In this document: one piece after another, positions 28,469-33,861 of the stretch
Layout: each line of letters starts with the position of its first letter
Numbering within the stretch: position 1 is the first letter of the stretch
Origin: a bacterium
GTDB taxonomy: Bacteria > Patescibacteriota > Saccharimonadia > Saccharimonadales > Saccharimonadaceae
DNA length: 45,521 nt
Reading direction: 5' to 3'
Assembly (NCBI GenBank): GCA_030530825.1
Contig: JAUMUF010000002.1
Location: 1-45,521 of the forward strand
Notes under the pieces: generated by a model
Told to the model about the DNA's origin: nothing
What the model saw: only the letters and a program-made list of their open reading frames with translations
The model's database searches: none
Position numbers and translations under genes: made by a program

Positions 28469-29464
28469 TTACTTAATTTTTATGCCAAAGGTTGAGCCTT
28501 TACCAATTTCACTCTTCACAAAAATCTCAAAATTATTCTTTTCTGCCAACTTTTTAGCGATCGCGAGACCTAAGCCGTGAGATTTATCTGCTTCGCCACG
28601 AGTTCTGGCAGAATCAACTCTACAAAACCGCTCAAAAATCCTGCTCTGATTCTCTTTCGAAATACCCTCGCCGTTATCTTCAACTTCGAAAATCGCAACT
28701 CTTCTATCTTTTTTACTTCGAATTTTTATAATTGAATTTTTATCAGAATATTTTATAGCATTATCTAAGAAAATTGTTAAAATCTGCCCAATTGCCAACC
28801 GATTGGATTTTATTTTACAGTCAAAATTAGATTTTTCAATCTTAATATTTTTCATCATTGCCTTATTTTTTAATTTTTCAACAACAGATTCAATAGCCAC
28901 AGAAGAAGAAAATTCTTCAATCTTTACATCACTTTTGTCTACTTTTGTCAAATTAAGCAAATTTTCTGCCAAATTGGAGAGATTTTGGATTTCTGCCACA
29001 TTTTTTTGCAAGATTTCTCGCGATTTTTGATCTGTTAATTTAGGCTTCCTCAGCGCAATCTGGTTAACCGCCAACATCGCCGCCAGAGGCGTCCTAATCT
29101 CGTGGCTTGCATCAGAAATAAACTGAGATTGGAGTTCAAAATTCTCCTCAATTGGGCGGAGAGTCCACCTAGCAAGCCCAAGACTGACAAATCCGCCCAG
29201 CACCAAAATCGCCAAATTCATCACGACAAGCGAAGAAATTATCTGTGCTTTGGCATATTCTTGCTGTTCTATCAAACGATTCTCAAAAAAAGAAAAAAAT
29301 TCTTTCTCTCGAAGTTGGAATTCCGCCCCTTCTTGGTTACGCGGAGGCTTTTGCGACATATTTACTGAAAAAATTGCAAAAATTACAACCGAGAAAAAGA
29401 TCGAAATCGCCATAATTACCGCTAAATAACTGGCCGAAAGTCGCAAAACCTGATTATTTTTCAT
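28469..29464 (-). CDS. Sensor histidine kinase
   Basis: The 331-residue kinase has two membrane helices (about 13-36 and 73-97) that enclose a short external stretch of about 35 residues. A HisKA domain follows with the phosphorylated H121 (SDASHEIRTPLAAML), then the ATPase domain with N box (FLDNAIKYSD), G1 (VEDNGEGIS), F box (FERFCRVD) and G2 (HGLGLAIAKKLAEKN). The small outside loop suggests it senses something in or near the membrane rather than a bound external ligand. The ATG overlaps the response regulator gene by 11 bases, so the two are coupled partners. Confidence 0.95.
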   Translation of the reverse strand: MKNNQVLRLSASYLAVIMAISIFFSVVIFAIFSVNMSQKPPRNQEGAEFQLREKEFFSFFENRLIEQQEYAKAQIISSLVVMNLAILVLGGFVSLGLARWTLRPIEENFELQSQFISDASHEIRTPLAAMLAVNQIALRKPKLTDQKSREILQKNVAEIQNLSNLAENLLNLTKVDKSDVKIEEFSSSVAIESVVEKLKNKAMMKNIKIEKSNFDCKIKSNRLAIGQILTIFLDNAIKYSDKNSIIKIRSKKDRRVAIFEVEDNGEGISKENQSRIFERFCRVDSARTRGEADKSHGLGLAIAKKLAEKNNFEIFVKSEIGKGSTFGIKIK

Positions 29465-30137
29465 TTGACAAATCCTCTATTTTATAGCCAAATCCAGAAA
29501 CCGTGTGAATCAATTTTTTATCAAATGGCTTGTCGATTTTTCTTCTTAAAAACATCACAAAAATTTCAACATTGTTAGGTAAAATATCACTATCAAAATC
29601 CCAACAATGTGCGATAATATCATCTTTGGAGCGGACAGTGCCAGCATTTCTCATCAAGAATTCAAGTACAGTGTATTCTTTGGCCGTGAGTTTGATCGGA
29701 CTACCCGCCCGCTCAACAGCCTTGGTAGCAGGATCGAGGGAAAGATCCGCCACGCGCAGAACTTCATCAATTTTATCTTTTGGCCGTCGAAGAAGCGCTC
29801 GAATCCGTGCCAAGAGAACTTCAAAATTAAACGGCTTAGCCAGATAATCATCCGCACCAAAGTCAAGTCCTGCCACCGTATCCTCAACCTCGGATTTGGC
29901 CGTCAACATCAAAATCGGCGTAGAATTACCGTCCTCGCGCAACTTTTTAACGACCTCAAATCCATCCATCTCAGGCATCATCACATCCATAATTATAGCG
30001 TCGTAATCGCTGGCTTGAGCCGTCAAATAGCCCTCTTGACCATCCTCAGCCACATCAACGGCATATTTCTCATCTTCAAGTCCCTCTTTTAGCGCCTCAC
30101 GAATCGCCCTGTCATCTTCAACAATCAATAACTTCAT
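29454..30137 (-). CDS. OmpR/PhoB-family response regulator
   Basis: The 227-residue regulator has a receiver domain with the acidic pocket (VEDD near 7-9), phospho-acceptor D51 (IIMDVMMPEMDGF), switch Thr (ILMLTAKSE) and Lys (YLAKPFNFE), then a winged-helix DNA-binding domain (LTAKEYTVLEFLMRNAG ... HTVSGFGYKIE). It acts with the histidine kinase encoded next. Three 7-base repeats lie directly upstream at its -35 region (30151-30177), two of them 11 bp apart, the usual layout for this family, so it probably controls its own promoter. The promoter is leaderless type. Confidence 0.96.
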   Translation of the reverse strand: MKLLIVEDDRAIREALKEGLEDEKYAVDVAEDGQEGYLTAQASDYDAIIMDVMMPEMDGFEVVKKLREDGNSTPILMLTAKSEVEDTVAGLDFGADDYLAKPFNFEVLLARIRALLRRPKDKIDEVLRVADLSLDPATKAVERAGSPIKLTAKEYTVLEFLMRNAGTVRSKDDIIAHCWDFDSDILPNNVEIFVMFLRRKIDKPFDKKLIHTVSGFGYKIEDLSNEK

Positions 30138-30181: not shown

Positions 30182-30640
30182 CTATAGCGCTTCAAAAATT
30201 GCTTCAATTTTACTTTGAAGTCTTTCAAAATCTCGAAATTCGGTTTCAATATCGTAAATCCGCCCGTTAAAAGACAAAATCCCCCTTCGAGAATGATAGT
30301 CTTGACTCGGAACACCATGCGCAACCATATTGCGGATATTCATCCATCGCTCAAAACTTTTATGGTCAAACGGAATGTTTTTTCTCTTTAGGATAGAAGT
30401 AAAAACTTTGATTTTATCGTTGAGTCGAAGTCTGCCAGCAAACATAAAATCCTCCATAAAAGCACTTTGCTTATCTGGAGAAACATAATACGCAGCAATA
30501 ACTTGATTCATCCTTAACTCTACCGCATTAACTCGCTCCACAATCATTCCGATTTTGGCGTAATCAGTAAAATCTTGGTCTAAATATTTAGGATTATTTC
30601 TAAATACACTGCGACGAATTTTCCTAAAATGACGCGACAT
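30182..30640 (-). CDS. HEPN-like helical protein
   Basis: From the ATG at 30640 (TGATG overlap with the signal peptidase gene) the product has 152 residues and no signal peptide. It looks mostly helical. Near the end of the helical part it has R103-N-M-V-A-H108 followed by Gly, the R-x4-H pattern of HEPN ribonucleases and related non-enzymatic HEPN proteins. The N-terminal 20 residues are very basic. In general HEPN proteins act in toxin-antitoxin, defence or RNA processing systems. No nucleotidyltransferase antitoxin is adjacent. Its coupling to a surface-fibre signal peptidase is odd and may be only positional. Confidence 0.55.
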   Translation of the reverse strand: MSRHFRKIRRSVFRNNPKYLDQDFTDYAKIGMIVERVNAVELRMNQVIAAYYVSPDKQSAFMEDFMFAGRLRLNDKIKVFTSILKRKNIPFDHKSFERWMNIRNMVAHGVPSQDYHSRRGILSFNGRIYDIETEFRDFERLQSKIEAIFEAL

Positions 30641-32340
30641 CAATACAACTTCCCAATATCATAATGCTCTTTAACCTGAAACGGCGTCAAAATTGTATCG
30701 TAAAGCGCCGCATTCCTGATAGATCCCGTAAAGTGAATTGGTCCATCAAATCGCGTATTGTCCGCATGCCGCCAGTTAGCAAGCCTACCGCAACCTATCT
30801 TCCAGTATCCAGTGGTATCTTCCGCCCTCGTCATCGAGGAACTATTAGCCACCAACTGACCGTCCAGATACAGGGAAGTTCCAGCAGTTGTAGAGAAAGA
30901 AACAATCACATGATGCCAATTATTGTCAGCGTAATTTCTGCCAGCTGGACTATTTATAAAAGTTATGCTTCCATAAAACAGCCCGAAGACAATTTGGCCG
31001 TTTTTGTCTATATATAAATTGCGGTCGTTTTTGCTGTCTCCAGTGAAGGGATCGTTGCCGAAACCCATAATTTTACCATTAGATTTTTTCGAAGTTTTAA
31101 ACCAAGCTTCGAGCGAAAAATTAGTAGGACTTACTAAGCGGGCCGAGGAGTCAGCGATACAAGTATCTGCACCGTTAAAAACCAAAGGAGTTCCACCATC
31201 GCGAGAGCAGATATTCGAAGCTCTATCTACGGTAAAGTTTCCTCGAGGCTGTCCATTTCTGGCCCTACCTTGAGAGTCTGTCCCCGCGAGATTATTATGA
31301 CTTGCCATAATCGAATTCATCTGATATGCAAAAGTAGGTTTAGGCTTAGCGTAGTGCGATTGAGTTGCTCCACATGTAAAATAACTGTTTGTCCGAGCTA
31401 TATTCTGACTATTCGAAATTCTTGCTGTAAATGCCGCCAATGAAGATAGCTGGAGAACCAAAATCAAAACAGAAATAGCAATAATAGCTGCAAACAATAT
31501 AAAATTTATCCGCTTTTCCTTGGCTATTTGATCGGGCGTAAGTTCATCCACATATCTTGAATCAGGAATATCCACCATTAAAGCCACGATTAACGGAATT
31601 AAGCACCATAGCGCAACCAAAACCATCCCCCAAAAACCAAGAGACGGTCGAGGGATATATACAAACCTCCCCTGATCATCAATTTCAGTCAAGTGGACGG
31701 TATTAGTTTCTCCAGCAAAAAATCGACCACCCTTTTCATCCCTTATCGGGAAAATGCCAGTATTAACAATCCGCATATTGGCGCCCTTTTCGGTATTAGG
31801 AGCATAGCCAAGCATTTGAACTCTCATCCAAGGGTTGAGTATAAAGGTCGCTATCATCACAACAACAGAATATCCTATCAACCTAATTGGCCAACGCCAC
31901 GGCTCATCAATTCTCTTGATACAAGAAATGAGATAAACAATAATCAGGCCAATCGTCAATATTGGCAATGCACGCCAGATCCAGCCAATATACTTCCCAA
32001 TGAATACAGCTGATCCGATAATATTATATTTCTCAACAGGCAAAGAATCAGCAAAATCATTCAAATCACCTTTTGTCTTAAATGTGCCATCACGATTTTC
32101 TTCAATAATCCTATGTGTATAAATTTTACCACTTCTATAAAAAGATATAATATCGTCTTTAGAATATTGATTTTTATCCTTAGAAATAACCAAAGAACCA
32201 ACAGGAGCAGTCGTCCCCATACTTGGAGTTTCTATGAAGAAAAATCTATATCCCAAAAGGAAAGACCCCAACAATAATCCTACCATTAGCAAGACTACTG
32301 TTGAGATAAAAATTAAAGACTTCTTCCCTATGTTAAGCAT
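30640..32340 (-). CDS. SipW-type signal peptidase fused to a LamG-like domain
   Basis: The 566 residues start with a helix (8-30) and an S26 peptidase domain: Ser40 (TPSMGTTAPVGSLVISK), then His76 (YTHRI) in place of the usual bacterial Lys, and Asp92/Asp96 (TKGDLND). Ser/His is the SipW/ER type. Four more helices follow (about 121-140, 155-171, 226-247, 279-300). After the last helix the sequence AAFTARISNSQNIARTNSYF copies the SipW-type cleavage region of the neighbouring TasA-like protein. A LamG/concanavalin-like domain (about 365-566, FSLEAWFKTSKK, WHHVIVSFS, SLYLDGQLV) ends the chain. The peptidase may release its own LamG domain. Promoter leaderless type, at 32348-32356. Confidence 0.85.
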   Translation of the reverse strand: MLNIGKKSLIFISTVVLLMVGLLLGSFLLGYRFFFIETPSMGTTAPVGSLVISKDKNQYSKDDIISFYRSGKIYTHRIIEENRDGTFKTKGDLNDFADSLPVEKYNIIGSAVFIGKYIGWIWRALPILTIGLIIVYLISCIKRIDEPWRWPIRLIGYSVVVMIATFILNPWMRVQMLGYAPNTEKGANMRIVNTGIFPIRDEKGGRFFAGETNTVHLTEIDDQGRFVYIPRPSLGFWGMVLVALWCLIPLIVALMVDIPDSRYVDELTPDQIAKEKRINFILFAAIIAISVLILVLQLSSLAAFTARISNSQNIARTNSYFTCGATQSHYAKPKPTFAYQMNSIMASHNNLAGTDSQGRARNGQPRGNFTVDRASNICSRDGGTPLVFNGADTCIADSSARLVSPTNFSLEAWFKTSKKSNGKIMGFGNDPFTGDSKNDRNLYIDKNGQIVFGLFYGSITFINSPAGRNYADNNWHHVIVSFSTTAGTSLYLDGQLVANSSSMTRAEDTTGYWKIGCGRLANWRHADNTRFDGPIHFTGSIRNAALYDTILTPFQVKEHYDIGKLY

Positions 32341-32365: not shown

Positions 32366-33040
32366 CTACGCACCAAATTGCCAAGTTATAGGTTGAGAAA
32401 TTTGAAGTCCCTGATGGGTTGCGTCAGCAGAATTGTCAAGAGATACGGCAAAAGTTAAAGGAATCTCATCATTAGGATTGATTGTTTGCTTTCCGAGTTT
32501 TTCAAGCAGGTTAATGGTTTGAGCATCTTGGAATTGCTTAGCGGTGCCTTCAAAAATAGTAGTAGCGCCAGATTTTAGAACAACTTTAACCTTTTCGCAA
32601 AGAGTGTTTGTGCCAGCACCTGAATACGAAGCACCAGCAAAAGCAGAAGCCGAGCAAGCCTCTCCCTTAACAGTGAAAGCATTAGCAGGAATATCCCCTG
32701 TGTTAGAGATTTTAATTGTAGTTTCTTTAGCTGGCTTACCAGGAATTAGTGGCTCATTAGTGCCTCCATACTTATTGATAGTTCCACAAGTATGTGAATT
32801 TCCTGCCCCCAACTTACTCTCACAACTTACTTCACCAGAAGCTCCAGGGCCAGTTTCTTTCATCACCAAAGAGGCAGTTCTCGCAGTATTGACAGAGTTT
32901 TGGATTTGCGCAATAAGCCCAGCCATCGCAGGAGAGAGCGCAAAAACAAGCATCAAGCTCATAAAACCACCAACAAGCACCAAGCCAACGCGCTGTTTCT
33001 TAAAATAATAATTTTCTTTTCTTTCGTCCTTTTGACTCAT
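32366..33040 (-). CDS. TasA/camelysin-like secreted protein with SipW-type signal
   Basis: The 224-residue protein has a long basic N-terminus, a hydrophobic helix (about 18-38) and a cleavage region (SPAMAGLIAQIQNSVNTART) of the kind processed by SipW. The mature part looks all-beta with four cysteines. ISNTGDIPANAFTVKGEAC resembles the TasA/CalY core (ISNTGDIP). TasA-like proteins form extracellular fibres. The gene directly precedes the SipW-like peptidase gene, as expected for enzyme and substrate. Promoter TTGACC-N18-TATAAT, leader of about 25 nt, and GGAG before the ATG. Confidence 0.8.
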   Translation of the reverse strand: MSQKDERKENYYFKKQRVGLVLVGGFMSLMLVFALSPAMAGLIAQIQNSVNTARTASLVMKETGPGASGEVSCESKLGAGNSHTCGTINKYGGTNEPLIPGKPAKETTIKISNTGDIPANAFTVKGEACSASAFAGASYSGAGTNTLCEKVKVVLKSGATTIFEGTAKQFQDAQTINLLEKLGKQTINPNDEIPLTFAVSLDNSADATHQGLQISQPITWQFGA

Positions 33041-33102: not shown

Positions 33103-33861
33103 TTAGAGACCAGCAACAAAAATCAGATATAAAATCACAATATGAAGCGGATAAATTACATAAAAAAGCCATTTAAGATTGGCGCCTTTCCGTCCATTAT
33201 ATGCAAGCATAAAAATCACCGCCACAAACATCATCCCCTGCTGGAATGGCTCAATCGGACTTGTGGTCAAAAAATGCCAGCCAGAAAACATTAGCATAAT
33301 TATCACAATCGCTAATTTCGAATTTCGAAAAATATAAAGTAGTATTCCCAAAATCACAAACCAAAAATGATATTCCAGGTAAAAAATCGACGGCAAAAAT
33401 CCAGAGAGGATCTTTCCCTCCATTTCATCCCAATTCATCACTCGTAAAATAATCGCGTGAAGCAAGACTGACACGAAAGCCACTAGGAGAATTTTAAGAG
33501 ATTTGCGCCAATTATTTTTGAGGTTTTCTAAAATCGAAATTCCGATCCCGATAAATAAAAAATTAAGAAAAATATTGTGTTGCGGGTAAAATTTAACCGT
33601 CTTTTCTTGCCAAAAATAAAGAAAAACAAGGTTAATAATGCTCATCAAAACACCAAAAAGATAGAGCCGAAAAAGTTGCAATCTTCTATTTTTTATATGA
33701 TAATATCCCCAAATAAACGCAAAAATAAATAGCGGAAACGCCACGCGACCAATCAGACGAAGCATCGGCCCCCATTGTCCAAATTGATCGTAAAAATAAT
33801 AACCAATATGGTCAATCAACATCGCAATTAGCGCGATGATTTTAATGGCGGATGTCGTCAT
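33103..33861 (-). CDS. TraX-family membrane protein
   Basis: The 252-residue protein has about eight membrane helices and the TraX start pattern (SAIKIIALIAMLIDHIGYYFY) with the typical Met-Asp-His. TraX acetylates F pilin; most relatives in other bacteria are of unknown role. In this setting, coded with a glycosyltransferase and the initiating sugar-phosphate transferase, modification of the glycan or of a surface protein with an acyl group is a reasonable guess. It overlaps the glycosyltransferase gene by 20 bases. No Shine-Dalgarno site could be chosen with confidence. Confidence 0.8.
   Translation of the reverse strand: MTTSAIKIIALIAMLIDHIGYYFYDQFGQWGPMLRLIGRVAFPLFIFAFIWGYYHIKNRRLQLFRLYLFGVLMSIINLVFLYFWQEKTVKFYPQHNIFLNFLFIGIGISILENLKNNWRKSLKILLVAFVSVLLHAIILRVMNWDEMEGKILSGFLPSIFYLEYHFWFVILGILLYIFRNSKLAIVIIMLMFSGWHFLTTSPIEPFQQGMMFVAVIFMLAYNGRKGANLKWLFYVIYPLHIVILYLIFVAGL

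Follow-up and report, generated by a model that had tools for sequence, protein, structure and literature searches.

The window analysed here, a stretch of 45,521 nucleotides from a bacterium of the Saccharimonadaceae, belongs to a genome of 0.69 Mb in three contigs, whose small size and gene content point to a Saccharibacterium, and carries on its reverse strand an intact ORF of 566 amino acids (30640-32340). The encoded protein is a signal peptidase of the SipW type with LamG as a fused C-terminal domain, an architecture shared with five full-length homologues. The S26B catalytic domain occupies residues 30-115 (31996-32253, reverse strand, as are all features of this gene) within a match to the SipW/archaeal-type model TIGR02228 over residues 11-134, which scores 47.2 bits, just below the cut-off of 51.85. 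NF046067 scores 40.2 bits, far below its cut-off of 190; since both curated SipW models fall below cut-off, the protein is filed as SipW-type and not as an equivalog of Bacillus SipW. The catalytic motifs, PSM-Ser40 (32221-32223), THR-His76 (32113-32115), with histidine and not lysine as the base, and KGDxN-Asp92 (32065-32067), are invariant in the six homologues.

The predicted model has five membrane helices. The first spans residues 6-28, and TM2-TM4 (residues 118-141, 146-167, and 235-255; 31576-31989) are kept in the homologues and include a small beta-rich loop, predicted to lie outside, at residues 173-232. TM5 (about residues 279-300, helix 269-299 in the model; 31441-31506) aligns with the TasA signal peptide in hhalign and, from its sequence, appears to be an internal signal-peptide-like segment behind a charged KEKR stretch. 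By the positive-inside rule, with KRI and KEKR as the charged residues, its N-terminus would be inside and the helix would run outward, so that everything beyond it would lie outside, as in any signal-peptide substrate. The predicted scissile bond, Ala302|Ala303 (31432-31437), is placed by the register of TasA-like N-termini and agrees with the -3/-1 rule. Residues 303-322 (31375-31434) form a conservation island with a TasA-like motif and are a candidate donor strand, and the LamG (concanavalin A-like) domain follows at residues 401-556 (30673-31140; PF13385, 62.8 bits against a cut-off of 27.6). Its best solved fold is AbnA domain 4 (Z 15.9, rmsd 2.5, 161 aligned). The AlphaFold model of the whole protein has a mean pLDDT of 61, falls below 50 at residues 294-319, and is too weak to locate the tail relative to the active site. 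An internal start that would yield the LamG part as a protein of its own was rejected: start codons occur in frame ahead of the motif, not one of them is shared by all six genes, and inspection by eye of the bases upstream showed no evident Shine-Dalgarno sequence.

Upstream of the peptidase gene, 25 bp away, lies a gene (32366-33040, reverse strand) whose product has no Pfam family and is identified by its predicted fold as a homologue of the fibre protein TasA. The model (mean pLDDT 69) has 8aur as its top Foldseek match (E 7e-4), and structural comparison with the two TasA structures gives Z 10.1 in both cases (rmsd 3.1 over 145 for 8aur, 3.0 over 139 for 5of2); the next-best solved fold is the Pyrobaculum TasA-like pilus 7ueg (Z 7.5). 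Signal cleavage is predicted at Ala40|Gly41 (32918-32923). Just upstream of this gene lies a TraX-type membrane protein (33103-33861, reverse strand; PF05857, 84.6 bits), followed by glycosyltransferase and sugar-nucleotide genes to about 37434, possibly an exopolysaccharide cluster beside the fibre genes. On the other side, a small ORF with weak HEPN similarity (30182-30643, reverse strand; PF18735, 17.2 bits, below cut-off) overlaps the last 4 bases of the peptidase-LamG gene, which points to coupled translation; an ORF of this type was not seen downstream at the other peptidase-LamG loci. A two-component sensor kinase and response regulator pair lies further downstream (28469-30137, reverse strand).

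Likeness of the peptidase tail to a SipW substrate

Directly after the last helix, at residues 302-321, is the string AAFTARISNSQNIARTNSYF. The original prediction, that a signal peptidase here carries its own SipW-type site followed by a LamG domain, is borne out by the intact ORF, the Pfam match, and the position of this string. Its count of 10 identities in 23 positions between the tail (LAAFTARISNSQNIARTNSYFTC) and the TasA-like neighbour (MAGLIAQIQNSVNTARTASLVMK) is exact by hand; the best 23-residue window between the two also has 10, a value reached by none of 300 composition-keeping shuffles. When orthologue profiles are compared over 100,768 ungapped windows of 23 columns, the 12 with the highest scores fall without exception on the one diagonal that pairs the tail with TasA. 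The hhalign alignment of the tail with the TasA N-terminus spans the signal, the site, and the post-site strand at P = 2e-5, while other regions of the same protein give 0.068-0.94. Chance likeness of the tail to TasA is rejected on the strength of the shuffles, the profile comparison, and the orthologues.

Orthologues lacking the string would have refuted the original prediction, and the pattern [AG]AF[TS][AG]xxxN.....R is common to all six peptidase-LamG proteins. Mean pairwise identity among them is 0.56 at residues 300-316, compared with 0.29 in TM5, 0.24 in the linker, and 0.10 in the preceding cytoplasmic loop. The predicted site has Ser300 at P3, Ala302 at P1, and Phe304 at P2'; in the TasA-aligned register, P1 is Ala in the six tails (Gly in G095), P3 is Ser or Thr, and P2' is Phe in all six. 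The tail thus has the features of a SipW substrate, namely a charged stretch predicted to be inside, a hydrophobic helix, small residues at P3 and P1, and a TasA-like mature N-terminus. In most of the TasA proteins that accompany the LamG fusions, P2' is Leu or Ile, and an aromatic residue at this position is therefore no strict rule here. TIGR04088 has no match in the peptidase-LamG tail or in the TasA-like neighbour.

The two proteins also travel together. Among 198 genomes of the family, peptidase-LamG and the TasA-like protein occur in exactly the same six, and their genes adjoin in five; in the sixth (G077) the TasA-like gene is on another contig. A profile of the helix and motif finds these two proteins as the only clear carriers in each of the six genomes, most of them by construction since it was built from the tails and TasA N-termini; the G095 tail, when left out, scored E 0.76. 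Its other matches, at E 0.003 (LemA-like by eye, in G038), 2.9, and 6.7, are unrelated on inspection.

Distribution of the fusion and its counterparts

The five relatives found among the 198 family genomes are 35-47% identical to the protein in the window, and restriction to one genome is thereby ruled out. A larger draw of 394 genomes returned the same six proteins, which come from four genera. None occurs in the four other genomes of the same genus, which makes the distribution patchy, by loss or transfer. Outside the family, 393 genomes of the order and 380 of the phylum yielded no full-length peptidase-LamG. A stand-alone LamG version of the tail was sought and rejected, the inspected matches being a pseudopilin-LamG protein and secreted LamG proteins of ordinary type that lack the motif; a search of genome contigs gave only unrelated LamG matches, and the source genome was covered by profile search. 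The pseudopilin protein (L057:5740-6867, reverse strand, genome G195) joins the N-terminus of a type IV pseudopilin (N_methyl) to LamG.

The original prediction rested on a single case of the fusion and proposed a search for it in other CPR genomes. The arrangement recurs, in the six LamG genomes and in further Patescibacterial peptidases with other cargo across the phylum. A survey of S26B peptidases in 287 phylum genomes gave 72 matches above the TIGR02228 cut-off, of which 10 continue past the usual helices into an additional C-terminal stretch or domain. In nine of these, a SipW-type string lies behind the third hydrophobic segment. The tenth (G631; L173) has a plain signal (VNA|QT) and a camelysin-like domain without the SipW motif, and is an exception to the rule of an in-chain site; this peptidase (L112/L173:2048-3373, forward strand), whose domain scores 20.6 bits with PF12389, below threshold, ends in an LPETG-like sequence and a membrane helix. 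An eleventh fused peptidase (L109, genome G884) came from the separate search of 380 phylum genomes. TIGR04088 matches inside its chain (22.8 bits, cut-off 19) and falls just below cut-off, at 17-19 bits, in the peptidases of L104, L148, and L153. The other fused peptidases tested exceed the TIGR02228 cut-off, their cargo is mostly a lamin-tail domain, and, except at L167, a TasA/camelysin-like gene with a SipW-type signal lies upstream.

Across ten such pairs the tail resembles its own TasA beyond expectation (permutation, p = 2e-4; 0.0017 without this window), with several tails scoring higher with a foreign TasA, and shared ancestry of the loci could add to this tracking. That the third-helix fusions form a single clade was considered and set aside: the tree needs 9-10 changes, of which well-supported branches force only 2. 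Fusions of an S26 peptidase to a sortase, enzyme to enzyme, occur in other genomes of the same family beside genes with SipW-type signals, two with Pfam support (L113:1673-2743, forward strand, and L116:1566-2642, reverse strand; PF04203, 72 and 86 bits) and two recognized by eye (L114:2197-3384, reverse strand, and L115:1485-2699, forward strand).

The same arrangement exists in split form. At least a dozen loci with a short SipW have, directly downstream, a gene whose product has a SipW-like signal and in many cases a lamin-tail domain, and this accessory gene often overlaps the unfused SipW gene, by 1-29 bases. The fused tail of G712 and a separate gene of G730 (family f50) are 38% identical over 250 amino acids, and the alignment begins at the cleavage motif, which makes the fused tail the counterpart of a free SipW substrate. 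No split version with LamG cargo was found in the genomes searched.

A proposed fused fibre accessory and the alternatives

The original prediction that enzyme and substrate are one chain gains from several lines of evidence: conservation among orthologues, homology to the TasA signal, the -3/-1 rule, the aromatic P2', recurrence, and cargo in split genes. Judged from sequence, the tail is in all likelihood a fused SipW substrate, and it is probably also cut at 302/303 by the peptidase-LamG enzyme. The prediction further held that cleavage would free a binding domain; the LamG domain is there, and it is better read as a fibre accessory of the TapA or CapP kind, although for the LamG cargo a TapA-like role is a functional analogy that we propose tentatively, at slightly less than even chances. 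The reading favoured as a whole, at somewhat better than even chances, is a dedicated SipW-type peptidase fused to a TapA/CapP-like accessory substrate that is cut at Ala302|Ala303 by the molecule itself or by a sister molecule.

Under the favoured reading the TasA-like neighbour would be the major fibre subunit and the peptidase would remove its signal peptide. The enzyme would also cut its own chain or that of a sister at Ala302|Ala303, behind the fifth helix, freeing LamG as an extracellular domain. The N-terminus exposed by the cut, AFTARISNSQN..., resembles that of mature TasA and may serve as a donor strand. The LamG domain could then start, cap, or anchor the fibre and bind a surface glycan or protein, and the fused cargo would be released (or held) where TasA leaves the membrane. 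The donor-strand biology of TasA fibres has been described (PMC9674648). TapA, of which no more than the initial residues are required, gives TasA its first donor strand and is produced, as is SipW, at a low level (PMC10151520); CapP has a related assembly role in Bacillus cereus (PMC13082335).

An unlikely alternative is that the tail stays uncut, TM5 holding LamG and the TasA-like strand at the membrane so that the peptidase forms the fibre base and offers its own donor strand to TasA that it has just processed. In favour of this, TapA is associated with the membrane and its N-terminal residues suffice for biofilms to form (PMC10151520), and conservation of the motif would also be expected of a donor strand alone. 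The P2' Phe of TasA (F29) is itself a donor-strand contact residue (PMC9674648), so that its service to the site and to the strand cannot be separated from sequence alone. Against a permanent tether, P3 and P1 both hold small residues in each of 16 tails (background, 9% of positions in these proteins), a requirement that does not apply to a donor strand, and the accessory proteins of the split loci have normal signals of the SipW type.

Release by the housekeeping enzyme LepB acting in trans, with the SipW domain irrelevant, is improbable. A separate LepB-type gene is present in all six genomes, as this explanation needs; its presence equally makes SipW-LamG a second and presumably dedicated enzyme. 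In Bacillus, Phe at P2' marks TasA, which SipW processes well and Escherichia coli LepB does not, and among 143 proteins with verified LepB cleavage not one has an aromatic P2' (PMC10269814). All six LamG tails have this Phe, and the P2' residue is aromatic in 15 of 16 tails overall, a count that is partly circular because the aromatic residue helped to set the register of the non-LamG tails (the LamG tails are free of this). The tail also matches the adjoining SipW substrate. Still less probable is a pseudosubstrate, in which the tail fills the active site and keeps the enzyme off until TasA or a LamG ligand displaces it; homology of the tail to a substrate agrees with this idea, but the conserved, permissive P3 and P1 suggest a site that can be cleaved. 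That the TM5-motif segment has no function, as a chance likeness or a remnant of stop loss between genes overlapping by 1-29 bases, which could simply yield fusions, is hardly credible when the motif is a conservation island among such divergent homologues and recurs in unrelated peptidases.

Several known systems share parts of this arrangement. Type I signal peptidases, among them E. coli LepB and Bacillus SipS, cut their own chain once purified, but this is a side reaction in vitro and not a means of releasing a fused domain that follows a complete signal segment. The archaeal bundling pili of Pyrobaculum are TasA-related donor-strand fibres and rank second to TasA among solved folds matched by the neighbour; we know of no peptidase fusion associated with them. 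In the tapA-sipW-tasA operon of Bacillus subtilis, as here, an ER-type Ser-His peptidase serves a TasA fibre protein and an accessory, and the N-terminus of TapA resembles the TasA donor strand, as does the tail (PMC9674648, PMC10151520). TapA, SipW, and TasA are, however, three proteins in B. subtilis, whereas here the accessory is fused to SipW, LamG stands in place of the TapA Ig domain, and tasA precedes sipW. In B. cereus (sipW-tasA, capP, calY), SipW processes the fibre subunits and the assembly regulator CapP (PMC13082335); CapP is a separate protein and is likened to the LamG cargo by function alone. LexA, UmuD, and CI (S24, in the signal peptidase superfamily) also have protease and cut site in one chain, but are cytosolic, Ser-Lys, and RecA-triggered, with neither a membrane signal nor a TasA partner (PMC12984324).

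No description of a SipW or signal peptidase fusion with LamG or a lamin tail was found in the open-access literature, in a search that covered few subscription papers. There is an even chance that these proteins represent a recurrent class in Patescibacteria of self-processing SipW peptidases, each shipping a fibre-accessory domain (LamG, lamin-tail, or camelysin-like) as its C-terminal substrate, with one enzyme per accessory and a single self-cut beside newly cut TasA. If the favoured reading is right, a signal peptidase chain would contain a genuine export substrate, and the step from enzyme to fibre initiation would be built into it. To our knowledge TapA itself is not conserved outside B. 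subtilis, and the fused and split forms offer a handle on a protein in its role elsewhere. TasA-type fibres would then exist in Patescibacteria, a group whose surface biology is poorly known.
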